Part shown: positions 1 to 19,770 of the stretch, in pieces
How the letters are laid out: every line of letters starts with the position of its first letter
Position numbering within the stretch: the stretch's first letter is position 1
Assembly (NCBI GenBank): GCA_020849475.1
Contig: JADLGE010000075.1
Coordinates: 1-64,000 of the forward strand
DNA length: 64,000 bases
Reading direction: 5' to 3'
DNA from: Gammaproteobacteria bacterium
GTDB lineage: Bacteria; Pseudomonadota; Gammaproteobacteria; Ga0077536
Notes under the pieces: generated by a model
What the model was told of the DNA's origin: nothing
Databases searched by the model: none
The model's input: the letters and a program-made list of their open reading frames with translations, nothing else
Made by a program: the position numbers and the translations under genes

Positions 1-63
1 ATGCTGCTGCCCATCCTCTACCTGCGTTTCGCGTTTCCGAAATCAGAGGTGTCTCATGACTGA
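1..63 (+). CDS. C-terminal end of a CzcA/CusA-type HME-RND efflux permease (partial, truncated by window edge)
   Basis: Frame 1 reads MLLPILYLRFAFPKSEVSHD*, resembling the LPxLYLRF C-terminus of HME-RND permeases; followed by DUF3240 and a TolC-like gene. Confidence 0.6.
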   Translation: MLLPILYLRFAFPKSEVSHD

Positions 64-358
64 TTTATGTTTGACCCTACTCTGTCCGCCAGCGGTCGAG
101 GAGAAAGTGCTCGATACCTTGCTCATGCTGTCGCAGGCGCTGGTATTCACCAGCACGCCGACCGCCGCCCACGGGCTGGCCATGGGCGGCCTGTCGCAGG
201 CCGAGCAAGTGATGGGCCGTGCAGACGCCACTGAAGTGCGGGTGGTTTTTCCTGCCGATGAAAAGGACCGCTTGCTTGGAGAGTTGCGCAGCCAACTGGC
301 GGGCGCCGGTCTGCGCTACTGGCTGACACCGGTACTCGAGGCGGGGGACATCGCATGA
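56..358 (+). CDS. DUF3240 family protein (RND metal-efflux associated)
   Basis: 100 aa ORF (MTDLCLTLLCPPAVEEKVLDTLL...) overlapping the stop of the RND gene; family resemblance and context. Confidence 0.7.
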   Translation: MTDLCLTLLCPPAVEEKVLDTLLMLSQALVFTSTPTAAHGLAMGGLSQAEQVMGRADATEVRVVFPADEKDRLLGELRSQLAGAGLRYWLTPVLEAGDIA

Positions 359-1605
359 AGACGCCAATACTGTTACTCGGTTTTCTGACGTTCTGCGCTT
401 CGGCCCATGCGTGGGAGAGCATCGCTCCGGAAGGTCTGTTACCAACTGAAATCGCACGCCCACTGCTCGAGCAGGACCCCGGCGTTGCCGCCGCGCGCGC
501 TGGGCTGGAGCTTGCCTTGCGCGACGCGGGGCTGCTGGATGGCTCGCCCTATGAATGGACCGCACGCGCCACTACGCAGGAGCGGGAGTTATCCGGCGGG
601 CCACATTATGGTGAGTGGAGCGTAGGCATCGAGCGCACCCTGCGCCTGCCTGGCAAGGCGGCCGCCGATCGCAATCTGGCGAGGACCACCATCGAGGCAT
701 CTGAAGCCGCCTATGGCGAAGCCTTGCACGAATCGGCCCGGCACCTGATTGCCCTGTGGCTCGACTGGCAGGCTGCCGAGCACGAAAGCGCGCTGACCGC
801 GACCAACCTCAAGGCAGTTGAAGACAGTCTCGCGGTGGTCGAAAAGCGCGTGCGCGCAGGGGATGCAGCCACGCTCGATGCGAGTATCGCAAAAGCGGAA
901 ATGGCAGAGCAGAAGCGCCAGCACAACGATGCGCTGACCCAGGCCGCGTCAGCCTGGGCGCGCCTGTCGACGCGCTTTCCCGGGATTAATCAGCAGGTAA
1001 TGACGTTAGCGACGCCCGTCCCGCTGGGCGATGACGTGGCCTCACTGCGCGACCGTATCCTCACTCAGAGTGACGAGCTCAAGATCGTGGAATTGGAGCT
1101 GAAGCTTTCGCAATTCCAAGCAGCACGCGCCGACGCCGAACGCATCCCCGATCCGACGGTCGGGGTGCATGCAGGCTGGGAAAGTGCGGGCCGGGAAAGG
1201 GTCGCAGGCGTCTCGCTCAGTATTCCGCTGCCCGGTAGCGCTCGCACTCAGAACCACGAACGCACTCTCGCTGCCACGCAAGTCTCGCTTCAAGATCTGG
1301 AATTGAAAAAGCGAGAGTTGGACGCCGAGATCGCTTCTGCTGTCGCGTCCGCGCGGGGCGCCTACGAAAGTGTGCGGCTCGCGCAGGACGGTGCACAGGC
1401 CGCGCGCGACAACGCCCGTCTCATGCAGCGGGCCTATGCGCTCGGCGAAGCAGAGTTGCAGACGCTGTTGCTCACACGACGCCAGGAGACGGTGGCCATG
1501 AGTTCCGCGCTGACAGCGCAGGTGGCAGCCCTGAAAGCCTGGTTTGGTCTCATGCTCGATGCGCATCTTATTTGGGATCTGGAACATGAAAATGCACAGG
1601 AATAG
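355..1605 (+). CDS. TolC/CzcC-like outer membrane efflux protein
   Basis: 416 aa, signal peptide, OEP-like coiled-coil repeats (ELKIVELELKLSQFQAARADAERIPDPTVGVHAGW). Confidence 0.85.
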   Translation: MKTPILLLGFLTFCASAHAWESIAPEGLLPTEIARPLLEQDPGVAAARAGLELALRDAGLLDGSPYEWTARATTQERELSGGPHYGEWSVGIERTLRLPGKAAADRNLARTTIEASEAAYGEALHESARHLIALWLDWQAAEHESALTATNLKAVEDSLAVVEKRVRAGDAATLDASIAKAEMAEQKRQHNDALTQAASAWARLSTRFPGINQQVMTLATPVPLGDDVASLRDRILTQSDELKIVELELKLSQFQAARADAERIPDPTVGVHAGWESAGRERVAGVSLSIPLPGSARTQNHERTLAATQVSLQDLELKKRELDAEIASAVASARGAYESVRLAQDGAQAARDNARLMQRAYALGEAELQTLLLTRRQETVAMSSALTAQVAALKAWFGLMLDAHLIWDLEHENAQE

Positions 1606-1681
1606 AAACATTAAGCTTTTGAGCGATATGCTCACTGTCAGCAAAAGGCGTCGGACGAATTGCCGTCGGGAGGGAATCGTA

Positions 1682-2113
1682 ATGAATCTGGCTCGCGTCG
1701 TTGTCGTTTCCCTGATGTTCGTGGCCACTGTCCAGGCGGCCCCGGCAAACCCGGTCAAACCGCATGCGGACCCGGCATTTGCACTGGTCGGACTTGATTC
1801 GTCGGCGGTCGTGATACACGCCAGCGCACAAACTGACGGAGGACGGCATCTCATCCGCGGCTATGTCTTACGCAAGGCTGCCAACAAGGTCGCCGGAACC
1901 GGCCACATCCATTTGGAAATCCTTTCACCCACAGGCGAATCGCTGGCCACAGGAAAGACCGCATTGACACCCACGCCACTGCCTCGCGGACGTCTGGGAC
2001 GTTCCTATTTTCGTTGGCCTGTTCCTGTCCCTGTGCCTGCCGGTGGACGCATCGAATTCCGTTACCACACAGGCTCCCATCGCTCATCCATGTCTGGGAC
2101 TGCGGACTCCTGA
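1682..2113 (+). CDS. Small secreted/periplasmic protein of unknown function
   Basis: ORF from ATG 1682: MNLARVVVVSLMFVATVQAAPA..., clear Sec signal peptide; RBS-like ggaggg upstream. Confidence 0.6.
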   Translation: MNLARVVVVSLMFVATVQAAPANPVKPHADPAFALVGLDSSAVVIHASAQTDGGRHLIRGYVLRKAANKVAGTGHIHLEILSPTGESLATGKTALTPTPLPRGRLGRSYFRWPVPVPVPAGGRIEFRYHTGSHRSSMSGTADS

Positions 2114-2118
2114 ATTCC

Positions 2119-3168
2119 GTGGACACCAGGTCCGCCCTTGGAAAGCCAGGCGTTCTGCCGGCCCTGACGGCGGCCCTGCTGTTTGGCACGGGCACGCCGC
2201 TGGCCAAGTTACTTTTGCAGGACGTCAGTCCGTGGATGATGGCGGGTCTGCTCTATGCCGGCTCGGGTATCGGTCTGTGGCTTTATCGCCGACTAGTCGA
2301 TGCGCCGGCGGTGCGCTTGCCGCGTAGCGAATTGCTTTGGCTCGCTGCGGCCGTCTTCGCAGGCGGCATCTGCGGCCCGGTGTTATTGATGTTTGGCCTG
2401 ACGCGTATGCCGGCGTCGGGCGCTTCGTTGTTACTGAACGCCGAAGGCGCATTCACTGCGATGCTGGCCTGGTTCATCTTCCGAGAGAATTTTGATCGAC
2501 GCATCGCGCTCGGGATGCTGGCAGTGCTGGCTGGCGCCGCCATCTTGAGCTGGCCGACTGACATTGAGTTCGCAGGCCTGTGGCCTGCCTGTGCCGTGCT
2601 TGGCGCCTGCTTTGCGTGGGGCATCGATAACAATCTGACGCGCAAGATCTCGCTGGTCGACGCGACCTGGATAGCAACGGTCAAAGGCTTGACGGCCGGT
2701 CTTGTCAATCTGGGGATCGCGCTTTTGCTGGGCGATCATTTTCCGTCTCTTGGACATCTCGGCGGCGCGATGCTACTGGGCTTTGCCGCCTACGGCATCA
2801 GCTTGGCCTTGTTCGTTGTCAGCCTGCGGCATCTTGGCTCCGCGCGTACTGGCGCCTATTTCTCGGTCGCGCCGTTCTTTGGCGCCACGCTCGCCTTGTG
2901 CCTCGGTGACCCGCTCACCTGGCCCCTGGTTCTGGCTGCCGCATTGATGGCGATAGGGGTGTGGCTGCATCTCACCGAGCATCATGTTCACGAGCATGTG
3001 CATGAGCCCATTGAGCACGAACATGAACACGAACACGACGAACACCACCAGCACGAGCACGACGATGCCGTGGCCGCAAAGGGCCCGCACAGACACCGGC
3101 ACAGGCATCACCCCATGAAGCATCAGCACGTGCATTTTCCGGACGCTCACCATCGGCACGGACATTGA
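2119..3168 (+). CDS. DMT/EamA-family transporter with long His-rich C-terminal tail
   Basis: Multiple TM segments with EamA-like repeats; C-terminus EHHVHEHVHEPIEHEHEHEHDEHHQHEH...HRHRHRHHPMKHQHVHFPDAHHRHGH; GTG 2119 is the likely start within ORF 2014..3168. Confidence 0.85.
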   Translation: MDTRSALGKPGVLPALTAALLFGTGTPLAKLLLQDVSPWMMAGLLYAGSGIGLWLYRRLVDAPAVRLPRSELLWLAAAVFAGGICGPVLLMFGLTRMPASGASLLLNAEGAFTAMLAWFIFRENFDRRIALGMLAVLAGAAILSWPTDIEFAGLWPACAVLGACFAWGIDNNLTRKISLVDATWIATVKGLTAGLVNLGIALLLGDHFPSLGHLGGAMLLGFAAYGISLALFVVSLRHLGSARTGAYFSVAPFFGATLALCLGDPLTWPLVLAAALMAIGVWLHLTEHHVHEHVHEPIEHEHEHEHDEHHQHEHDDAVAAKGPHRHRHRHHPMKHQHVHFPDAHHRHGH

Positions 3169-3318
3169 GTCTCAGGCGCTGGCAACCCTGCCGGCGCGCT
3201 TGAAATAGCCACTGGCGCCGCTTAGTCTCAACGCACGGGGAAATCGGCAGTCTCCCCTTCAGGCGCTCCGGCACCCAAGCTCTGCCCTTCCAATCGGCGA
3301 ATTCGTCGAGGAGGGACT

Positions 3319-4503
3319 GTGAACTTGGAAACATTGACTGAGACCGGCGCGCCGCAGCCTCCCCTTTATTCGCTTAAAGATCTGGTGCTTTACGCACTGA
3401 AGCTCGGCACCGTCGGCTTTGGAGGTCCGGTCGCGCTGATCGGCTATATGTATCGCGACCTGGTCGAGCAGCGCCGCTGGATCAGCGAAGCCGATTACAA
3501 GGAAGGGTTGGCACTCGCCCAGCTCATGCCGGGGCCGCTGGCGGCGCAGCTTGCGATGTATCTCGGCTATGTCCATTACCGCAATATCGGTGCGACGCTT
3601 GTCGGCATCGCATTTGTATTGCCCTCTTTCCTGATGGTGCTTGGGCTGGGATGGCTCTATGTTCGCTTCGGCGGGCTTGGGTGTATGCAGGCGGTGTTCT
3701 ACGGCGTCGGCGCCTGCGTGATCGGCATCATCGCCATGAGCGCCGGCAAACTCACCGCCAAGAACATCGGTCGCGACAAGCTGTTGTGGCTCATCTATCT
3801 GGTCAGCGCGTCGATCACGGCGGTAACCGCGTCCGAGCCGGTTTGGGTCGTCCTGGGCGCGGGCGTGCTGGTCTGGCTGGTACGTGCGCCGCCCGCTGCC
3901 TTCAAGGGCGGCGGTACCACCTATTCCATGGCGGCGCTCAGCTTGTTAGTGGTGGGTGTCGATTGGCCAGTCCTCGCGGAAATTGGCAGCTTCTTTGCGA
4001 AAGCAGGTGCGTTCGTGTTCGGCAGTGGCTTGGCTATCGTGCCGTTCCTGTATGGCGGTGTCGTGACCGAGCATCATTGGCTGTCCGAACAGCAGTTCGT
4101 CGATGCCGTGGCGGTGGCCATGATCACGCCCGGCCCAGTGGTTATTACCACCGGCTTTATCGGCTACTTGATCGCCGGTCTGCCGGGCGCCGTGGTGGCT
4201 GCGGTCGCCACGTTTGTGCCCTGTTACCTGTTCACCGTCATCCCCGCCCCTTACTTCAAGAGGTACGGCCGACTCCCTGAGGTGGTGGCCTTCGTTGATG
4301 GCGCGACCGCGGCCGCTGTCGGCACCATCGCTGGCGCCGTTCTTGTGCTCGGGCGAAGGTCTATTGTCGATACGCCTACAACACTACTCGCGATTTGCAC
4401 GGTCGCGCTTCTGTGGAAATCGAAGAAGCTACCTGAGCCCGTAGTGGTTGCCTCCGCAGCGGCCAGTGGGTTGTTCATCTTCCCGGGAAGCGCGCAGCCA
4501 TGA
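3319..4503 (+). CDS. chrA: Chromate transporter, two-domain CHR family
   Basis: Duplicated CHR domains (KLGTVGFGGPVALIGYM / FVFGSGLAIVPFLYGGVV), 394 aa. Confidence 0.9.
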   Translation: MNLETLTETGAPQPPLYSLKDLVLYALKLGTVGFGGPVALIGYMYRDLVEQRRWISEADYKEGLALAQLMPGPLAAQLAMYLGYVHYRNIGATLVGIAFVLPSFLMVLGLGWLYVRFGGLGCMQAVFYGVGACVIGIIAMSAGKLTAKNIGRDKLLWLIYLVSASITAVTASEPVWVVLGAGVLVWLVRAPPAAFKGGGTTYSMAALSLLVVGVDWPVLAEIGSFFAKAGAFVFGSGLAIVPFLYGGVVTEHHWLSEQQFVDAVAVAMITPGPVVITTGFIGYLIAGLPGAVVAAVATFVPCYLFTVIPAPYFKRYGRLPEVVAFVDGATAAAVGTIAGAVLVLGRRSIVDTPTTLLAICTVALLWKSKKLPEPVVVASAAASGLFIFPGSAQP

Positions 4504-4579
4504 ACGAAAGAAATTTCGTTACGTCGAACGCCTATGGACTGTATCGGTCACCCAATAATTTGTTCTGAGGAGAACCATT

Positions 4580-5341
4580 ATGTCTCATGCCACTCGCCGT
4601 GAATTCATTCAATCGGCATCAGTCGGCGCCGCTGGCCTCCTGCTTACCAGCGCAGTCAGCGCCGCAGAATCGGCTGATAAAAAGTCCGCCGATGCGGACA
4701 CAATGATTTCTCCCGTGTTCGCAACCGAACATAAGCCCAAGACCCTCGATTTCGATCCCGCGAAGCTGAGCGGCATATCAGAAAAACTCATGCGTTCGCA
4801 TTGGGAAAACAACTATAGCGGAGCAGTGAAGACACTCAATGCGGTCAACAAGCAATTGGCCGCAGCGCTATCGGTCAAAGATTCGCCGCCGTGGGCATAT
4901 AACGATCTCAAGCGCGAGCATCTGATCCGAACCGGATCGGTGGTCTTTCACGAGCTGTACTTCGGCAATCTCGGTGGCGACGGCAAGGCGGACGCCTCCT
5001 TGCGTAGCGAACTCGGATCGCGTTTTGGCAGCTTTGACGCCTGGGAGTCAGAGTTCCGAAAGATCGGCGCGGGTCTCGGCGGAGGCTCGGGCTGGGTCGT
5101 GCTCGGCTACAACCTGCACACCCAGGCGATCGAAAACTACTGGCTGGCTGATCACGCTCACGGCCCTGCGGCTACCCTACCGCTGTTGGTTATGGACATG
5201 TATGAACACGCTTACCAGATGGACTACGGCGCAGCGGCGGGCAAATACATCGATGCTTTCTTTCAAAATATTCGCTGGGAAGTGGTCGGTAGCCGTCTGG
5301 CAAGTGTGCGCAATTTCAAAATGGCGGAAGGCACTGCGTGA
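4580..5341 (+). CDS. Tat-exported Fe/Mn-family superoxide dismutase, divergent
   Basis: N-terminal twin-arginine signal (SHATRREFIQSASVGAAGLLL); SOD C-terminal motif MDMYEHAYQMDYG; putative ligands His, His, Asp, His retained. Confidence 0.85.
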   Translation: MSHATRREFIQSASVGAAGLLLTSAVSAAESADKKSADADTMISPVFATEHKPKTLDFDPAKLSGISEKLMRSHWENNYSGAVKTLNAVNKQLAAALSVKDSPPWAYNDLKREHLIRTGSVVFHELYFGNLGGDGKADASLRSELGSRFGSFDAWESEFRKIGAGLGGGSGWVVLGYNLHTQAIENYWLADHAHGPAATLPLLVMDMYEHAYQMDYGAAAGKYIDAFFQNIRWEVVGSRLASVRNFKMAEGTA

Positions 5342-5583
5342 AGTGGATGAGTCGGGTGCATCAGCATATTGTCCGCATCGGTGGTACGTGCTGATGTACA
5401 CAGACTAGATCGGGTCACCTTCAACGCTCGAGAAATCGCTAGGGGGCGCCGACAACGTTTTGATATGACCGGCGTGAAACGGCACGATGTGCCACTCGAA
5501 CATTCCGATGCCGTTCGGGGTTTGTCGCACACGTGAGTCACCTGCGACGGCAAGCACAATGTGGACGCAGGCGCATACACATA

Positions 5584-6831
5584 TCAGTCAGAATGGCCCT
5601 GTGCAGGAGCGGCCCCGGCCTTTAACCTCTCCAGATAGTCCGCCCAAGCCTGCATCATCTTCTTACGCTCCGGCAGGTGCTCGGCGCGGTTGTAGGCCGC
5701 GCGAATACTGTCCCGCTCGGCGTGGGCAAGCTGACGCTCGATGGCGTCGCGGTGCCAACCCTGTTCATTTAATAGGGTCGATGCCATCGAGCGAAAGCCG
5801 TGGCCGGTCATCTCGGTTTTCGTGTATCCCAAGCGCCTCAGTGCAGCGTTGACCGTATTCTCACTCATGGGTCGGGCGCGACTGCGTATGCTGGGAAAAA
5901 CGAATCGGCCGCTGCCGGTGTGTGAACTCAGCTCACGCAAGATCGCTACGGCTTGTTTTGAGAGCGGCACGAAGTGCGCCTCGCGCATCTTCATGCGTTC
6001 ACCGGGAATGCGCCAGGTCGCCTGGTCGAGGTCGAATTCCTTCCACTCAGCAGCTCGCAGTTCGCCAGGTCGCACGAACACGAGGGGCGCAAAGCGCAGG
6101 GCCGCGCGCGTGATGGGTTCGCCCTGATAGTCGTGAATTGCCCGCATGAGTCCGCCGACGGCCTTCGGCTCGGTGATGGCTGCGTGATGGACAGGGTTGG
6201 CAGGAGGCAGGGCGCCGGCGAGATCGGCTGTCGGGTTAGCGGATATGCGACCCGTGGATATGGCGTAGCGGAAAATCTGACCGAGTATCTGGCGCACTCG
6301 GCGAGCGATTTCATTGGCGCCTCGGCCTTCGACAGCCTGCAGCACCTTTAGCAGGGCAGGGGCGTTCAGTTCGCTGATCGGTTTCGAGCCGATGCGCGGA
6401 AACAGATCAGCTTCCAGCCGAACGAGCTTGGCGTCGGCCGTGACCTTCGCCCACGAGCTGCGCTGCTTGGCATGCCATTCGCGTGCGATGACTTCGAAGG
6501 TGTTCTGGCCGGCAGCCGCGCCGGCAGCTTTCTCTGCCCTGCGGGTTTCTGCTGGGTCAATCTTGCAGGCGAGGAGCTTTCTGGCGTGGTCGCGTTTTTC
6601 GCGGGCGCCGTCTATCCACAAGCCAGTCTTCTTATCCTGGCGACCGGCAAGCGGCACATCGGGGTAGATGCCAAGACTAAGCAGCTTTTCCTTACCGCTG
6701 AATCGATACTTCAAGCGCCACCATTTACCACCCGCCGGTGTCACCAGCAGGAACAGTCCGCCACTGTCGAAAAGCTTCAGGGGCTTTACGTCGGCTGTGG
6801 CATTTTTGATGGCAGTGTCCGTGAGCGGCAT
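5584..6831 (-). CDS. Tyrosine recombinase/integrase, P4-type (DUF4102 N-terminal domain)
   Basis: N-term MPLTDTAIKNATADVKPLKLFDSGGLFLLVTPAGGKWWRLKYRF; catalytic RPGELR, HGFR, LAHAERD..AAYNR; located beside tRNA-Leu. Confidence 0.93.
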   Translation of the reverse strand: MPLTDTAIKNATADVKPLKLFDSGGLFLLVTPAGGKWWRLKYRFSGKEKLLSLGIYPDVPLAGRQDKKTGLWIDGAREKRDHARKLLACKIDPAETRRAEKAAGAAAGQNTFEVIAREWHAKQRSSWAKVTADAKLVRLEADLFPRIGSKPISELNAPALLKVLQAVEGRGANEIARRVRQILGQIFRYAISTGRISANPTADLAGALPPANPVHHAAITEPKAVGGLMRAIHDYQGEPITRAALRFAPLVFVRPGELRAAEWKEFDLDQATWRIPGERMKMREAHFVPLSKQAVAILRELSSHTGSGRFVFPSIRSRARPMSENTVNAALRRLGYTKTEMTGHGFRSMASTLLNEQGWHRDAIERQLAHAERDSIRAAYNRAEHLPERKKMMQAWADYLERLKAGAAPAQGHSD

Positions 6832-6995
6832 GTGGGGGTAACCACGCTGGGGTCGTCCTTGTTACCCCAATTTCTACCCCCAGTTACCCCCGGCTGTCAA
6901 CGGTGGGCTCTGGATCGTCTTGGAAGAGAAATCTTCGATTTTCCCGAGGAATTCCGCCGTTTTTGGAATTTCTCGGAAGCCTCTGGAAGCTCTCT

Positions 6996-7082
6996 TGGTA
7001 CCGGGAGGGGGAATCGAACCCCCACATCCTTACGGATACCAGATTTTGAGTCTGGCGCGTCTACCAGTTCCGCCATCCCGGC
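6996..7082 (-). tRNA. tRNA-Leu (anticodon CAA), CCA encoded
   Basis: Reverse complement GCCGGGATGGCGGAACTGGTAGACGCGCCAGACTCAAAATCTGGTATCCGTAAGGATGTGGGGGTTCGATTCCCCCTCCCGGTACCA; acceptor stem, D-arm, anticodon stem CCAGA/TCTGG, variable arm and T-arm all recognisable. Confidence 0.96.
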
Positions 7083-7102
7083 AAGGTGTGCGAAGGGCGC
7101 AG

Positions 7103-7108
7103 AGTATA
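7103..7108 (-). promoter_or_regulatory. -10 element (TATACT) of the tRNA-Leu promoter
   Basis: Minus strand ...TCGACC-17-TATACT upstream of the tRNA 5' end. Confidence 0.6.
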
Positions 7109-7165
7109 TTGAAACCTCAGGCTGCGGTCGACCTTGGCGGCATCGGCTCTGATAGACTCGCGCCC

Positions 7166-9321
<2,156 letters not shown>

Positions 9322-9373
9322 CAACCTTCCACCAGCCTGTGCAATAATGCGCGGCCATTTTTCGAGATAATTC

Positions 9374-9703
9374 ATGGACTACCTGATACCAAACGCGTGG
9401 GCGCAAGCCGCAGGCACGACGCCCCAGGGGGGGCTGGCGAGTTTCCTGCCGCTGGCGATTTTGTTTCTGGTTTTCTACATGTTCCTCATCCGGCCGCAGA
9501 TGAAGCGCCAGAAGGAACACGCCAAGCTCGTGAAGGAACTGGCCAAGGGCGATGAAGCCGTCACCAGTGGCGGCATGCTCGGCAAGGTCACCGAGGTGGG
9601 CGCGAATTTCGTCAAGCTCGAAATCGCCAAGGACACCGAGGTCAAAGTGCAGAAGCACGCCATTGCGCAGGTCATGCCCAAGGGTACCTTGAAGGAAATG
9701 TAA
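9374..9703 (+). CDS. yajC: Preprotein translocase subunit YajC
   Basis: 109 aa, single TM, FYMFLIRPQMKRQKEH; context tgt-yajC-secDF. Confidence 0.96.
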   Translation: MDYLIPNAWAQAAGTTPQGGLASFLPLAILFLVFYMFLIRPQMKRQKEHAKLVKELAKGDEAVTSGGMLGKVTEVGANFVKLEIAKDTEVKVQKHAIAQVMPKGTLKEM

Positions 9704-9777
9704 GGCGCCTCCCGCCTCCGGCCGGCGCGCCGCCGGCCGAGCGCCACGACACCCATGAAAAGATTCGGATCCCATCG

Positions 9778-11595
9778 ATGAACGAATACCCGCTGTGGCG
9801 CTACCTGTTGGTCCTGGTCGTCGTGACCGTCGGCGTGCTCTATGCACTGCCCAATCTCTATGGCGACGACCCGGCGCTGCAGATCTCGGCGCGCCGTTCC
9901 GAGACTGTCGACGAAGCCCTGAGCACGCGCGTGGTCGACGCCCTGAAAGCGGCCAGCATCGACGTCAAACGCAGCGAAATGCAGCACAAGAGCGTGCTCC
10001 TGCGCTTCAACGATCTCGATGCCCGCGCCAAGGCGCGCGACGTGGTCGAGAAGACCGTCGGCGAGCATTACATCGTGGCGCTCAACATGGCGCCGGCCAC
10101 CCCCGACTGGCTGCGCAAGATAGGCGCCAAGCCCATGTACATGGGGCTCGATTTGCGCGGTGGCGTGCACTTCCTCATGCAGGTCGACATGGACGCCGTG
10201 CGCACCCAGACCGACGAGCGCTTCGTGTCGGAACTGCGCACCGCTTTCCGCGACGAGAAGATTCGTTACCGCTCGATTGCGCGTGACCCTGACGGCGGCG
10301 TGCGCGTCAGCTTCCAGAACGAAGAGGCCAAGCAGAAGGCCGGCCCGGTGCTGACCAAGGACTTCCGCGAACTGCAGCGCACCGAGCAGAGCGACGCCAC
10401 CGAACTCCTGCTTACCGTCAGCCCCAAGCTGACCGACGAAGTGCGCAAGACCGCCATCAAGCAGAACCTCACGACCCTGCGTAATCGCGTGAACGAGTTC
10501 GGCGTCGCCGAGCCCGTCATCCAGCAGCAGGGCGAAGGCCGTATCGTCGTGCAACTGCCGGGTGTCGAAGACACTGCCGAGGCGAAGAAGATCCTCGGTG
10601 CGACGGCAACCCTCGAATTCCGCCTGGTGGACTTCAACAACGACGCGCAGCGCGCCATCGACAGCGGTCACATTCCGGTCAATTCCAAGGTCTATTACGA
10701 CAAGGCCGGCAAGCCCATCCTGCTCGACAAAAAGGTCATGCTGACCGGTGAGTACATCATCGACGCGTCGAGCGGCATCGAGCAGACCAGCGGTGGCCCG
10801 GCGGTGTTCATCACCCTCGACGGCAAGGGTTCGCGCCTGTTCAGCCGAGCCACCCGCGAGCAGATCGGCAAGCCGATGGCGGTGGTCTATATCGAGCAGC
10901 GCAAGGGCCGCGCCATCGAGCAGGTCATCAACGTCGCCACCATCCGCGACGAACTCTCCAAGCGGTTCCAGATCAGCGGTCTCGATTCGACCGACGAAGC
11001 CCACACCCTGGCGCTCTTGCTGCGTGCCGGTGCGCTGGCGGCGCCGATAGAAATCATCGAAGAACGCACCGTCGGCCCGAGCTTGGGGCAAGACAACATC
11101 GATAAAGGCATGATGTCGGCCATGATGGGCCTCATCGCCGTGGTGGTGTTCACCGCCATCTACTACCGCGCGTTTGGTCTCATCGCCGGCGTGGCGCTGT
11201 CGATGAACGTGGTGTTGCTGGTGGCGCTCCTGTCGATGCTGCAAGCGACCCTGACCCTGCCCGGTATCGCCGGCATCGTGCTGACCGTCGGTATGGCCAT
11301 CGACGCCAACGTGCTCATCAACGAACGCATCCGCGAAGAACTGCGCAACGGCAACTCGCCGCAGGCCAGTATCCATGCCGGCTACGAAAAGGCTTTCGCG
11401 ACTATTGCCGACGCCAACGTCACGCACATGATCGCGGCGCTGGTGCTGTTTCTGTTCGGCACCGGCCCGGTCAAGGGCTTCGCGGTCACGCTGACCTTGG
11501 GCATCCTGACCTCGGCTTTCACCGCCATCACCGGCACGCGCGCCATCGTCAACCTGGTCTACGGCCGTCGCCGTCTCAAGGGCCTGTCGGTTTAA
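9778..11595 (+). CDS. secD: Protein translocase subunit SecD
   Basis: GLDLRGGVHFLMQVDMD motif, SecD C-terminal TM domain. Confidence 0.97.
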   Translation: MNEYPLWRYLLVLVVVTVGVLYALPNLYGDDPALQISARRSETVDEALSTRVVDALKAASIDVKRSEMQHKSVLLRFNDLDARAKARDVVEKTVGEHYIVALNMAPATPDWLRKIGAKPMYMGLDLRGGVHFLMQVDMDAVRTQTDERFVSELRTAFRDEKIRYRSIARDPDGGVRVSFQNEEAKQKAGPVLTKDFRELQRTEQSDATELLLTVSPKLTDEVRKTAIKQNLTTLRNRVNEFGVAEPVIQQQGEGRIVVQLPGVEDTAEAKKILGATATLEFRLVDFNNDAQRAIDSGHIPVNSKVYYDKAGKPILLDKKVMLTGEYIIDASSGIEQTSGGPAVFITLDGKGSRLFSRATREQIGKPMAVVYIEQRKGRAIEQVINVATIRDELSKRFQISGLDSTDEAHTLALLLRAGALAAPIEIIEERTVGPSLGQDNIDKGMMSAMMGLIAVVVFTAIYYRAFGLIAGVALSMNVVLLVALLSMLQATLTLPGIAGIVLTVGMAIDANVLINERIREELRNGNSPQASIHAGYEKAFATIADANVTHMIAALVLFLFGTGPVKGFAVTLTLGILTSAFTAITGTRAIVNLVYGRRRLKGLSV

Positions 11596-11620
11596 GGCCG
11601 AAAGAATCAAGGAACCTGCC

Positions 11621-12541
11621 ATGGCCGAGCATAAAGAATTCAATTTCGACTTCATGGGTCATGTGCGGCCGGCGGTCGCACTGACCACCTTGCTGGTGAT
11701 CATTTCGGTCGGTGCGAGCCTCTTCAAGGGCTTCAACTTCGGCGTCGATTTCACCGGCGGCACCTTGGTCGAGCTTGGCTACAAGAGCGAGCCGGATCTG
11801 AACCAGATTCGCGAGGCGCTGCACGCGTCGGAATTCAAGAACGCCATGGTGCAGCGTTTCGGCACGCCGACCGACGTCCTGGTGCGTCTGCCGCCGACCG
11901 GCGATCAGAAGGCGGCCAGCGTGAGCCACCGCGTGGTGGAACTCTTGCCCGGCGCCGAGCTCCGGCGTATCGAATTCGTCGGCCCGCAGGTCGGTGATGA
12001 GCTGGCGGAGTCCGGCGTGCTGGCGCTGCTGTTCGCGTTGGGCGGCATCTTCCTGTACGTGATGCTGCGCTTCACCTGGAAGTTTTCGGTCGGCGCCATC
12101 GTCGCCACCATGCACGACGTCGTGATCACCATCGGTTATTTCGCGGTCACCGGTCGCGAATTCGATCTGACGGTGCTGGCGGCGGTGCTGGCGGTGCTCG
12201 GTTATTCCCTGAACGACACCGTGGTGGTGTTCGACCGCGTGCGTGAAAACCTGCGCAAGATGCGCAAGGGCACCGTCACTGAAATCGTCAACGCGGCGCT
12301 CAACCAGACTCTGTCGCGCACCCTCATGACCTCGGGTGAAACCATGCTGGCGGTGCTGGCGCTGCTGTTCTTCGGCGGCGAGCTGCTGCACGGTTTCTCG
12401 GTCGCGCTCGTAATCGGCATCCTGGTCGGCACCTATTCCTCCATCTACGTCGCCACCGCGACCGTGGTGTGGCTCGGTATCAACCGCCAGGAAATGATGC
12501 CGGTGGTCAAGGAAGGCGCGGGCGCCGACGAGCGGCCCTGA
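11621..12541 (+). CDS. secF: Protein translocase subunit SecF
   Basis: FNFGVDFTGGTLVELGY; VVVFDRVRENLRK. Confidence 0.97.
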   Translation: MAEHKEFNFDFMGHVRPAVALTTLLVIISVGASLFKGFNFGVDFTGGTLVELGYKSEPDLNQIREALHASEFKNAMVQRFGTPTDVLVRLPPTGDQKAASVSHRVVELLPGAELRRIEFVGPQVGDELAESGVLALLFALGGIFLYVMLRFTWKFSVGAIVATMHDVVITIGYFAVTGREFDLTVLAAVLAVLGYSLNDTVVVFDRVRENLRKMRKGTVTEIVNAALNQTLSRTLMTSGETMLAVLALLFFGGELLHGFSVALVIGILVGTYSSIYVATATVVWLGINRQEMMPVVKEGAGADERP

Positions 12542-12583
12542 GTCCGGCCGGGCGGCGCCTGATTGCGCGCCGCCCGCAGTTCT

Positions 12584-13711
12584 GTGCTGAAGATCCTCGC
12601 CGATAGAGAAATCAACACCGTCGCGGAGCACTTCTCCGCGCTCGGTTCGCTGCGCTTGTTCGACGGTCGCGCGCTCGATGCGGCCACCCTGGCCGACGCC
12701 GAGGTGCTGTTGGTGCGCTCAGTGTCGAAGGTCGATGGCGCGCTGCTGCGCGACAGCGGCGTGCGTTTCGTCGGCACCGCCACGGCCGGCGTCGATCACA
12801 TCGAGCTCCCCGCGCTCGAACGCGCCGGCATCGCCTTCAGCGACGCCGCTGGCTGCAATGCACGGCCGGTTGCCGAACACGTCATCACCTGTCTTTACCT
12901 GCACGCGGCGCGGGTCGGCTGCGCGCCGCGCGATCTCAGCGTCGGCATCATCGGCTGTGGACACGTCGGGCGCAGCCTCATCGCGCTGCTCGATGGACTG
13001 GGCATCAAGCATGTCGATTTCGATCCGCCGCGCGCGGCGCGGGATGCGGGGTTCGTCAGCGCCACCTTGGCCGAAGTGCTGACGTGCGCGGTGGTGAGCC
13101 TGCACGTACCGCTCATTGCCGACGGTCCATGGCCGACTGTCAACTTGCTCGATGCCGCGGCCATCGCCGCGCTCAAGCCCGACACCCTCGTGATCAACGC
13201 CGCGCGCGGCGGCATCGTCGACGAAGCGGCGCTGGTCGCACGCTTGCGGGGTGCGCATGCCTTGCACGCGGCCATCGATTGCTGGGCCGGTGAACCGCGC
13301 GTTGATACGCAGCTGCTGGATGCAAGTTGGCTGGCGACGCCGCACCTCGCAGGACATTCCTTCGAGGCGCGACTCCTCGCCACGCGCACGCTGTGGCAGG
13401 CGGTGCGCGCATGGCAGGGCCTGCCCGCCGCCGCGCCGCCCGTCACTTTGCCGGCGCTGAAAGTCGAGCGCTCGGTGCCGGCCCATGGCGGCGTGGCCGC
13501 GCTGCTGGCCAGCGTCTATCCCATTGGCGCGCACGACGTACGCATGCGCGCGGCGCTGGCAGTGGATGCGAACCATGTGGGTGCGCATTTCGATGAGATT
13601 CGTCGACGCCATGCGCTGCGCCGTGAGATAGCCGCCTACAGCGTTGCATGCGCTGGGCTCGCGCCCGATACTGTCGCCGAACTGACGGCTCTCGGTTTCC
13701 ATTGCGTTTGA
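12584..13711 (+). CDS. pdxB: Erythronate-4-phosphate dehydrogenase
   Basis: [20 protein letters not shown]...; D-2-hydroxyacid dehydrogenase fold motif [13 protein letters not shown] plus PdxB C-terminal extension. Confidence 0.9.
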
Positions 13712-13742
13712 GCCCTCGCTCCCTGAACTTTGCCAGCCCCAC

Positions 13743-14942
13743 GTGTTGCCCATGACTTTCGCTTCTATCGGAACGCCGCTGTCGGCCCATGCCACCCGTT
13801 TGTTGTTGCTCGGCGCCGGCGAGCTAGGGCGCGAAGTGGCGCTGGAAGCAATGCGTCTGGGGCTGGAAGTCATCGCCGTCGATCGCTATGCCAACGCGCC
13901 GGCCATGCAGGTCGCGCATCGCTCCCACGTCATCGACATGCTCGACGCCCGCGCGCTGGACGAAGTCATCCGCCGCGAGCAGCCGCATTTCATCGTGCCG
14001 GAAGTCGAGGCTATCGCCACCGACCAACTGCTGGAACTGGAAAAGGCCGGCTTCAACGTGGTGCCGACCGCCAACGCCACGCGTCTGACCATGGACCGCG
14101 AAGGCATACGCCGCCTCGCCGCCGAACAACTCGGCGTGCCCACCTCGCGCTACCAGTTCGCCGGCTCCGAAGCAGAATGCGTGGCGGCGGTGGCGGCGGT
14201 TGGCACGCCGTGCATCGTCAAGCCGGTCATGAGTTCCTCGGGCAAGGGCCAGGTGACAGTGCGCGCAGAGGCCGATGCCGCCGCTGCCTGGCAGACCGCC
14301 ATGGCTGGCGCCCGCGCCGCGCGTGAGCGCGTGATCGTCGAGGGCTTTGTCGATTTTGATTACGAGATCACCTTGCTGACCGTGCGCCATGCCGGCGGCA
14401 CGAGCTTCTGCGCGCCGATAGGCCATCTGCAGATAGACGGCGACTACCGCGAAAGCTGGCAGCCGCAGCCGATGAGCGCGCTGGCCTTCGAGCGTTCCTG
14501 CGAAGTGGCCCGCACCGTGACTGATGCCTTGGGCGGCCATGGGGTGTTCGGCGTCGAGCTCTTCATCAAGGGCGACGAGGTCTGGTTCAGCGAAGTCTCG
14601 CCGCGCCCGCACGACACCGGCATGGTGACCATGATCTCGCAGCCGTGGTCGCAGTTCGCGCTGCATGTGCGCGCCATTCTCGGCGTGGCGCTGCCGCCCA
14701 TCGAACTCTACGGGCCCTCGGCGAGCTGCGCGGTCCTCGGTAGCGGCAATGGCAGCGATATCCGCTACAGCGGTTTGCAGCAGGCCATGGCCGTGCCCGG
14801 CACGGACTTGCGCATCTTCGGCAAGCCGACGATCGCCGGTAAACGACGCCTGGCGGTGGCGCTGGCGCGCGGGCAGAGCGTGGACGAGGCGCGGGCCAAG
14901 GCGCGCGACGCTGCCGCCAGCCTCGAAATCATCATCCGTTGA
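13743..14942 (+). CDS. purT: Formate-dependent phosphoribosylglycinamide formyltransferase
   Basis: ATP-grasp; [32 protein letters not shown] 13752 is an alternative start. Confidence 0.95.
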
Positions 14943-14982
14943 GAGGGCGTCCGCGCCGCTTGCCTAAAAAGGGGAGACCACC

Positions 14983-15369
14983 ATGAGAATGCTGCACACC
15001 ATGCTTCGCGTCACGAAGCTCGACGCCTCGCTGGCCTTCTACACCGAAGTGCTGGGCATGAAGCTCCTGCGCCGCCATGATTTTCCCGAGGGGCGCTTCA
15101 CGCTGGCCTTCGTCGGCTACGGCGACGAGGACAGCCACACGGTGCTCGAACTGACCCACAACTGGGACACCGACAGCTACGAACTCGGCACTGCCTATGG
15201 CCACATCGCGCTCGGCGTGGCGGATGTCTACAAGGCCTGTGACGAGATCAAGGCGCGCGGCGGCCGCGTGGTGCGCGAGGCCGGTCCCATGAAGGGCGGC
15301 ACGCGGGTCATTGCCTTCGTTGAAGACCCGGATGGATACAAGGTCGAACTGGTCGAGGATCGCCACTGA
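14983..15369 (+). CDS. gloA: Lactoylglutathione lyase (glyoxalase I)
   Basis: [31 protein letters not shown]; 128 aa. Confidence 0.95.
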
Positions 15370-15567
15370 TCCCGGACAGCTTGCGCGCCGCTCACGCGCC
15401 ATCCGCGAGCCTATTCGCGGGTGGCTTTGTGCTACATTAGCGCTCCCCATGGGCGCCCCCGCTCGCCATTGCGGCGAGTCTCGCTGGCGTGGCACCCATA
15501 GACGAATTCCGGCGCGACGCGGCCACGCGGCGAGCACTCATTCTGCTGGTGACAGAGGACCTAAGGC

Positions 15568-16194
15568 ATGAAGCGTTTCCTTCGAGTTTCGATGGCGTCT
15601 TTCCTTTTGCTGGTGAGCGCATTCGCGTTCGCGGCCAGCGAGGCCCCGCCGCTCGATATCGTGCGTACCACCACCGACAGCGTGCTGGCGCGCGTCAAGG
15701 CCGACAAAGACACGCTGCGTGCCGACCCCGGCAAGATGTTCGACCTGGTCTCCGAGCTCATCTTCCCGCACTTCGATTTCGCCATCATGGCGCAGTGGGT
15801 GCTGGGTGACAGCTGGGCCGGCGCCGACGAAGCGACCCGCACCGCCTTCGTCGATCAATTCCGCAAGCTGCTGGTGCGCACCTACGCGACCGCGCTGCTG
15901 GAATTCTCGGACCAGACCATCGGCTATCCCGATATCGAGCCGCCGGCAGCCGCCAACACCGCGACCGTCAAACAAGAGATCTCCCAGCCCGGCAGCGAAT
16001 CGATTCCGATCGTCTACCGCCTGCACAACAAGACTGGCGACTGGAAAGTGTTCGACGTCTCCGTTGACGGCGTGAGCCTGATCAAGACCTACCGCGCATC
16101 CTTTGCCGCGGCGATCAAGAACGACGGCCTGCCGGCGCTGATCCAGAATCTGGAAGCGAAGAACCAGCAGTTCGCCGCCGCCAAGACCCAATAA
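15568..16194 (+). CDS. mlaC: MlaC/Ttg2D-family phospholipid-binding protein
   Basis: Signal peptide plus Tol_Tol_Ttg2 motifs (ELIFPHFDFAIMAQWVLG); upstream of ibaG-murA. Confidence 0.9.
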   Translation: MKRFLRVSMASFLLLVSAFAFAASEAPPLDIVRTTTDSVLARVKADKDTLRADPGKMFDLVSELIFPHFDFAIMAQWVLGDSWAGADEATRTAFVDQFRKLLVRTYATALLEFSDQTIGYPDIEPPAAANTATVKQEISQPGSESIPIVYRLHNKTGDWKVFDVSVDGVSLIKTYRASFAAAIKNDGLPALIQNLEAKNQQFAAAKTQ

Positions 16195-16230
16195 CCATTT
16201 GCGCGCGACAGCGCCCGGACCCACACAGGC

Positions 16231-17759
<1,529 letters not shown>

Positions 17760-17813
17760 GGGCGAGGCGCATGGCGGCGCCCCAGTCCTCTTCCTGCTGA
17801 GTCCTCTGCGAAC

Positions 17814-18470
17814 ATGGGCAATACATTCAATTCCAATCCGGACGAGGTGATGCTCGCGGTCTCCAAGGGCCGTATTTTCGAGCAGGCCATGCCGCTGCTT
17901 GAGCGCATCGGCATCACGCCGACCGACGACCCGGACAAATCCCGCAAGCTGGTGCTCGACACCACCGCCCCTGGCGTGCGCCTGCTGGTGATTCGCGCCA
18001 CCGACGTGCCGACCTATGTCGAATACGGCGCGGCCGATCTCGGCATCGCGGGCAAGGACGTCCTGATGGAATACGAGGGCAGCGACTACTACGAGCCGCT
18101 CGATCTCAAGATTGCGCAATGCCGCCTGGCGGTGGCCGGGCCGCCGCAGGCAGTGTTGGTCGACGGTCGCACGCGGGTCGCGACCAAGTATTCCAAGGTC
18201 GCGCGTGAATACTACGCGCGGCTCGGCGTGCAGGCCGAAGTCATCAAGCTCTATGGCTCGATGGAACTCGCGCCCTTGGTCGGACTCGCAGATCGTATCG
18301 TCGACCTGGTCGATACCGGCAACACCCTGCGCGCCAACGGCCTGGTCGAATTCGAAACCATCTGCGAGATCAGCTCGCGATTGATCGTCAACAAGGCCGC
18401 GATGAAGACCAAGCACAAGCGCGTCAGCGCCATCATCGCGGCGCTGCGTGCGGTAGTGAAAGATGGCTGA
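17814..18470 (+). CDS. hisG: ATP phosphoribosyltransferase, short form
   Basis: 218 aa; [33 protein letters not shown]; no C-terminal regulatory domain. Confidence 0.95.
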
Positions 18471-19770
18471 TACTTGCCCCATGCGTCGGCTCGACGCCGG
18501 CGCCGCCGGTTTCGAGGCCGAGCTCTCGACCCTGCTGGCGTGGGACGACGACTCGCGGCCGGAAGTGGTGGAAACCGTGCGCGGCATTGTCACCGACGTG
18601 CGCCGCCGCGGTGACGCGGCGCTCATCGAATACACCAATCGCTTCGACCGGCGCGCCATCGTCGACGCGCGCGAACTGGAACTCCAAGATTTCGCCGCGC
18701 TGGGCGCCGGCATCGCGCCCGAACTCGCGGACGCCTTGCGCGCCGCCGCCGCGCGCGTGCGCAGCTACCACGAGCACCAGAAGGCCGAGTCGTGGCAATA
18801 CCGCGAGGCCGACGGCACGGTGCTCGGTCAGCAGCTGCGGCCTTTGGACAGGGTCGGCATCTATGTGCCGGGCGGCAAAGCCGCCTATCCGTCTTCGGTG
18901 TTGATGAATGCCATCCCGGCCAAGGTCGCCGGTGTCGAAGACGTTGTAATGGTGGTGCCGGCGCCGGACAACGCGCTCGAGCCCGTGGTGCTGGCCGCCG
19001 CCGCGATTGCCGGCGTCGATCGCCTGTTCACCATCGGCGGCGCGCAGGCCATCGCGGCGCTGACCTATGGCACCGCGACCGTGCCGGCGGTCGACAAAAT
19101 CGTCGGGCCGGGCAACATCTACGTGGCAACCGCCAAGTCCATGGTGTTCGGCCGTGTCGGCATCGACATGATCGCAGGGCCGTCCGAGATCCTCATCGTC
19201 TGCGATGGCGGCACGGATCCGGACTGGATAGCGATGGATCTCTTTTCTCAAGCCGAGCACGACGAACAGGCGCAGTCGATATTGCTGTGCCCCGACGCGG
19301 CGTTCCTCGATGCGGTGGCCGCCAGCGTCGAGCGACTTCTGCCCGACATGCCGCGCGCCGACATCATCCGTCAAGCGCTGGCCGCGCGTGGCGCGCTGGT
19401 CAAGGTGGCCAACATCGCCGAAGCCATCGCGCTCGCCAATCGCATCGCGCCCGAGCATCTTGAATTGTCGGTCGCCGAGCCACGTCGCTGGCTGCCGGAC
19501 ATTCGTCATGCCGGCGCGATTTTTCTCGGCCGCTATACCGCCGAGGCGCTCGGCGACTACTGCGCCGGGCCCAACCATGTGCTGCCGACCGCCGGCAGCG
19601 CGCGCTTTTCATCGCCGCTCGGTGTGTACGACTTCCAGAAGCGTTCATCCATCATCGAATGCTCGGCGGCCGGCGCCGCCGAGCTCGGTCGCGTGGCCGG
19701 CACCCTGGCGCGCGGCGAGGGCCTGGTGGCCCATGCGCGTTCAGCGGAATATCGAGTCCCGAAATCATGA
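18463..19770 (+). CDS. hisD: Histidinol dehydrogenase
   Basis: [37 protein letters not shown]. Confidence 0.97.

Follow-up and report, generated by a model that had tools for sequence, protein, structure and literature searches.

A tRNA-Leu-proximal island with nickel-type efflux and chromate resistance modules as its probable cargo in a gammaproteobacterium

Gene run at the left edge and its tRNA-Leu(CAA) site

The window, that is, the whole 64,000-nucleotide stretch of gammaproteobacterial DNA analysed here (contig C75), opens with genes that the original prediction had described as a co-directional run of an RND permease end, DUF3240, a TolC-like protein, a secreted protein, a His-rich EamA transporter, ChrA and a Tat-exported SOD. 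All of these were found in one direction and near their predicted places in the ORF list, and family assignments (Pfam, NCBIfam) and coordinates confirmed them. The left boundary was rightly suspected to lie outside: position 1 is precisely the contig end, and contig C116 (9,528 bp; locus L003) shares an exact 127-bp end overlap with the window start on the opposite strand. The reverse complement of C116 supplies the upstream genes smallI, CzcB and CzcA, so that the full run comprises nine genes in one direction (smallI-CzcB-CzcA-DUF3240-CzcC-small143-CnrT-ChrA-SOD), with all reading frames intact. De Bruijn assemblers leave end overlaps of one fixed length at branch points. Because the overlap on which the join rests is typical of such branch points, C116 is likely, though not proved, to be the upstream continuation of the run. 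The features are as follows.

C116 4377-4742, minus strand: smallI, His-containing secreted protein, 121 aa
C116: CzcB adaptor, 374 aa (TIGR01730)
C116 68-3175, minus strand: CzcA, bulk of the gene, 1036 aa; its stop overlaps the beginning of the window's DUF3240 gene
1-60, plus strand: C-terminal end of the CzcA/CusA-family RND permease (127-bp overlap; whole protein TIGR00914, 1076 bits)
56-358, plus strand: DUF3240 protein of the RND operon (PF11582, E 7e-21)
355-1605, plus strand: CzcC-like outer-membrane factor (PF02321)
1682-2113, plus strand: small143, secreted, from a family without a name that is linked to HME-RND genes (Pfam and NCBIfam gave no match)
2119-3168, plus strand: CnrT-family EamA/DMT exporter with a His-rich C-terminus (PF00892; CnrT similarity)
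3319-4503, plus strand: ChrA chromate transporter (TIGR00937, 408.7 bits)
4580-5341, plus strand: ChrC-type Fe/Mn superoxide dismutase with a twin-arginine leader (PF02777; ligands and ChrC signature)
5584-6831, minus strand: P4-type tyrosine integrase (PF13356, PF22022, PF00589; phrog_1)
6992-7014: att core, the tRNA-Leu 3' end, with an exact copy at C31 ~84605-84627
6996-7082, minus strand: tRNA-Leu(CAA), the integration site (ARAGORN)

The integrase separates the SOD gene from tRNA-Leu(CAA), at a distance of 164 bp from the tRNA, and an AlpA regulator (PF05930) and a Toprim/DUF3987 primase-helicase lie at the opposite end of C116. A P4-type integrase beside a tRNA, AlpA and a primase/helicase, the latter two on C116, together make up the gene set of a P4/CP4-57-like element. 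The sampled remainder of the window is core chromosome (Pfam fits to ftsI, murE/F, ftsW, murB, ftsA, ftsZ and clpB), and GC content is 60.6% in the island part versus 64.2% in the rest. Moreover, in a genome of the same genus (G658), the flank found on contig C31 (locus L009) runs straight into the tRNA-Leu and its downstream gene, with the insertion absent, which indicates that the insertion separates these two parts in the genome of the window.

The exact 23-bp tRNA-end repeat is present on C31 and a diverged one on C116, the contigs themselves not being joined. A decayed 67-bp copy of the tRNA's 3' part lies on C31, 1 kb before the exact 23-bp tRNA end; this exact att copy is followed by an element end that shares 77% identity with the far terminus of C116. 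These tRNA copies and the element end suggest that at least two related elements seem to have used the site, and the C31 arrangement may be a tandem or an older insertion at the same tRNA. The decayed copy, ORFs, exact att copy and element end lie at L009 7547-8732, and by eye the ORFs between the two tRNA copies resemble a GNAT/DUF1778-type toxin-antitoxin pair. In addition, C116 9402-9528 overlaps C53 1-127 by 127 bp, where C31 would be expected from synteny; this reflects either an assembly branch or a rearrangement.

Predicted divalent-cation and chromate modules

The permease exceeds the TIGR00914 cut-off of 701 bits and shares one operon with an adaptor and an outer-membrane factor, which is the tripartite composition of an HME-RND pump. 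Its closest solved relative is ZneA. We considered assignment to the Czc or Cnr type (HME1/HME2), whose TM4 motif is DFG-DGA-VEN (PMC3637150), and ruled it out, as TM4 of the CzcA in question reads AIG-MLV-DGA-VVV-VEN, with AIG instead of DFG. Given this difference, the protein is likely a divalent-cation pump. Upstream of CzcB, smallI is CzcI-like in size and place and ends in PFRPP; it matched no family, and tblastn against plasmids gave no match. An equivalent smallI stands first in the RND operon at three loci (window/C116, L089 13386-13745 and L138 8261-8632).

Across 96% of its length, the EamA protein matches pMOL28 CnrT, annotated as a nickel diffusion facilitator, at 55.6% identity, and it has 25 His in its final ~64 residues; full-length similarity and a His-rich C-terminus thus both mark it as a CnrT. 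The alignment of homologues favours GTG 2119 over TTG 2014 as its start. In Cupriavidus metallidurans, nickel is exported by DmeF, CnrT and CnrCBA (PMC11647595). In the class sample, 5/18 CnrT genes had an HME-RND gene scoring above the cut-off no more than 10 kb away, against ~0.3 expected (P ~1e-5; the expected value uses RND counts read by hand), which indicates that the CnrT-RND linkage is real; linkage to chr genes is occasional. A contig scan with CnrT returned mostly His-repeat patterns, with five relatives among the matches listed.

ChrA is a full-length CHR protein (TIGR00937 cut-off 171.7 bits). The SOD beside it carries a TRREFIQ twin-arginine leader, and its Fe/Mn ligands (H74, H124, D206 and H210) are invariant across 10 sequences. 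The signature SHxxNNYxGxVK is common to the window SOD, pMOL28 ChrC and eight other homologues, several of which have twin-arginine leaders too. The ChrC of Ochrobactrum tritici is an active Fe-SOD, predicted to be periplasmic, and chrC mutants accumulated more ROS under chromate (PMC4779226). Taken together with the signature and ligands, these data identify the predicted envelope SOD beside ChrA as the established chrA-chrC (chrBAC) pairing, minus ChrB: none of the ORFs recovered for the island encodes ChrB, which relatives possess. The idea that ChrC is not a true SOD, raised by NNYxG[AS] in place of the usual gateway residues, was dropped in view of the Fe-SOD activity of the O. tritici protein (PMC4779226).

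As a working scheme, the first module would consist of the HME-RND pump (CzcB-CzcA, DUF3240 and CzcC), preceded by smallI and followed by small143 and the CnrT-type exporter. CnrT would transfer Ni, or a different divalent cation, from the cytoplasm into the periplasm, from which the RND complex would expel it to the outside; the likely part of small143 and smallI is to bind or deliver metal in the periplasm. In the second module, ChrA would expel chromate, and the Tat-exported ChrC would clear superoxide arising under chromate stress.

Recurrence of the parts and probable modular make-up of the island

The CzcB-CzcA-DUF3240-CzcC module recurs at loci L057, L069, L089, L138 and L152, and CnrT adjoins it at L057, L069 and L138. 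In genome G091 (same family, other genus), the order is chrF-ChrA-SOD-smallI-CzcB-CzcA(86%)-DUF3240-CzcC, and a CnrT fragment and another chr operon lie beside it. At 4600-19600 of that locus (L089, contig C32 of G091), the two chr operons directly adjoin each other, and one of them leads straight into a close copy of the window's RND operon; the CzcA frame there is apparently broken. On pMOL28, chrB-A-C-E-F adjoins cnrYXHCBAT, and on the Acidovorax T1 plasmid it adjoins DMT-RND genes. CnrT adjoins ChrA-SOD in Novosphingobium EMRT-2 and chrB-chrA in B. stagnalis. A neighbourhood check for recurrence had been proposed with the prediction, a lack of co-occurrence elsewhere being named as refuting; this refuting outcome did not arise, for the parts do co-occur in other genomes, but in permuted order.

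Comparison with known systems places each part. Like the window, pMOL28 of C. metallidurans brings an HME-RND pump, CnrT, ChrA and a ChrC SOD together within ~13 kb of mobile DNA; it differs in that its RND protein is an HME2 (CnrA) under CnrYXH regulation, its chr genes are divergent and accompanied by ChrB, E and F, DUF3240 and small143 are missing, and its ChrC has no Tat leader. The chrBAC operons (Shewanella ANA-3 plasmid; TnOtChr, chrB-A-C-F) share ChrA followed by a ChrC-type SOD, and the ANA-3 SOD, which has a leader, shares 60% identity along its length with that of the window, whereas ChrB is present there. Operons of a Janthinobacterium J1-1 plasmid, Rhodanobacter glycinis and same-family genomes have the CzcB-CzcA-DUF3240-CzcC order with CzcA 72-86% identical, several with CnrT adjacent; unlike in the window, small143 was not found in them as far as searched, and chr linkage occurs in G091 only. 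By paper description only, Cupriavidus neocaledonicus, from Ni-rich soil, likewise combines chr with Ni-type efflux genes (chrBA and a nie RND cluster; PMC7060636), and the Ni-adaptation genes of serpentine Mesorhizobium include ChrA and a ChrC-like SOD (PMC5315480), both with other RND/Ni transporters. The cassette had been put forward as an under-described system. This does not hold, as the same kind of assembly exists on pMOL28 (cnrCBAT by chrB-A-C) and on the Acidovorax plasmid, and the SOD is ChrC.

We therefore asked which reading of the run these neighbours favour. The combined metal/ROS unit that had been predicted stands as a gene set for several metals plus ROS, but the arrangement points to modules stacked on a mobile island, given the variable order, the missing ChrB and the CnrT kin outside the family. 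For window ChrA, SOD and CzcA the nearest relatives are in same-family genomes (with a Janthinobacterium CzcA near behind), whereas for the window CnrT they are stand-alone CnrT genes of other families (66-69%), a contrast that fits assembly from separate modules. A single co-regulated operon forming one integrated defence against one combined stress would agree with nine genes in one direction with short gaps, with the lack of a prominent terminator or promoter-like site between the two modules, and with the renewed adjacency of chr and RND genes in G091; we nevertheless judge it improbable, since gene order and orientation differ in every other genome having the parts, CnrT-RND occurs without ChrA-SOD and vice versa, and the nearest CnrT relatives lie outside the family. 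Slightly less probable still is a decaying or silent island whose modules arrived without their regulators (ChrB, CnrYXH, CzcRS) and are poorly or not expressed: ORF inspection and family scans of the recovered island gave no ChrB, cnrX or cnrH homologue and no metal-response regulator, AlpA being the sole regulator seen, but the frames are intact, ChrA is still full-length, the SOD retains its ligands, and the Caulobacter czr/ncz RND operons are metal-inducible without nearby regulators (PMC3637150).

The reading we prefer, with a probability of about 0.83, is that window positions 1 to ~6990 belong to an integrated P4/CP4-57-like island, of which they form the end next to the tRNA, with two known resistance modules as cargo. 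The cassette would thus be a modular island of known systems, a Ni/divalent module and a chromate module, and not one new machine, which leaves the original prediction partly supported overall. An association study of serpentine Mesorhizobium placed ChrA and a ChrC-like SOD among Ni-adaptation genes, and Cr and Ni can both be elevated in the same soil (PMC5315480); from these two points we infer that the modules are probably co-selected cargo. The cassette then represents a further case of nickel-type and chromate resistance on shared mobile DNA, a pairing to be expected in places where both metals are found.

The small143 family beside heavy-metal pumps

The recurrence of small143 by metal pumps is the only part of the cassette that would be unexpected to a specialist, and this small exported family, nameless in Pfam and NCBIfam, is a by-product more useful than the cassette itself. 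A single-sequence search found it in 4/274 class genomes and a 9-row profile in 12/369. Among the 22 small143 loci examined outside the window, 21 have an HME-RND permease gene nearby (one of them, L183, resembles a close copy of L182); the sole exception, L188, is on a 10.7-kb contig. In most loci, small143 is adjacent to the permease or separated from it by DUF3240, and elsewhere other pump genes intervene. The gene after small143 is a metal transporter in several loci, namely a CDF protein (L087, L186), a HupE-like protein (L064, L100) or CnrT (L175), the order in the last being CzcC-CzcB-CzcA-DUF3240-small143-YnfA-like-CnrT (YnfA-like assigned by eye).

Many homologues start with a lipobox-like signal, and the window member has a plain signal peptide. 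The alignment has two invariant glycines, and a GH[LIV] motif and C-terminal His residues are common. The predicted structure, modelled from an alignment that left out two plasmid-derived rows, is a seven-stranded beta-sandwich (pLDDT 79, pTM 0.65). The PDB held no relative of the sequence, and the Foldseek matches of the model in the PDB were weak, of a generic beta-sandwich kind, and never reached E<=0.001, so no function is claimed from the fold.

The linkage suggests that small143 probably acts in the periplasm as an accessory to HME-RND pumps and may bind metal. We give about even odds to a broader proposal, in which these periplasmic proteins or lipoproteins of ~140 aa (Ig-like beta-sandwich, GH[LIV][HD], C-terminal His) form an undescribed family of dedicated heavy-metal RND accessories, perhaps passing metal from a CnrT, CDF or HupE-like exporter to the pump. 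Its linkage to HME-RND genes makes the family a candidate part of metal-efflux complexes that can be put to the test, like the equally uncharacterised DUF3240, for which there was no PDB match and a literature search yielded no relevant paper. DUF3240 occupies the same place at L057, L064, L069, L089, L138 and L152, and it lies directly 3' of the RND permease in at least 10 sampled loci, including L064 9477-9782.
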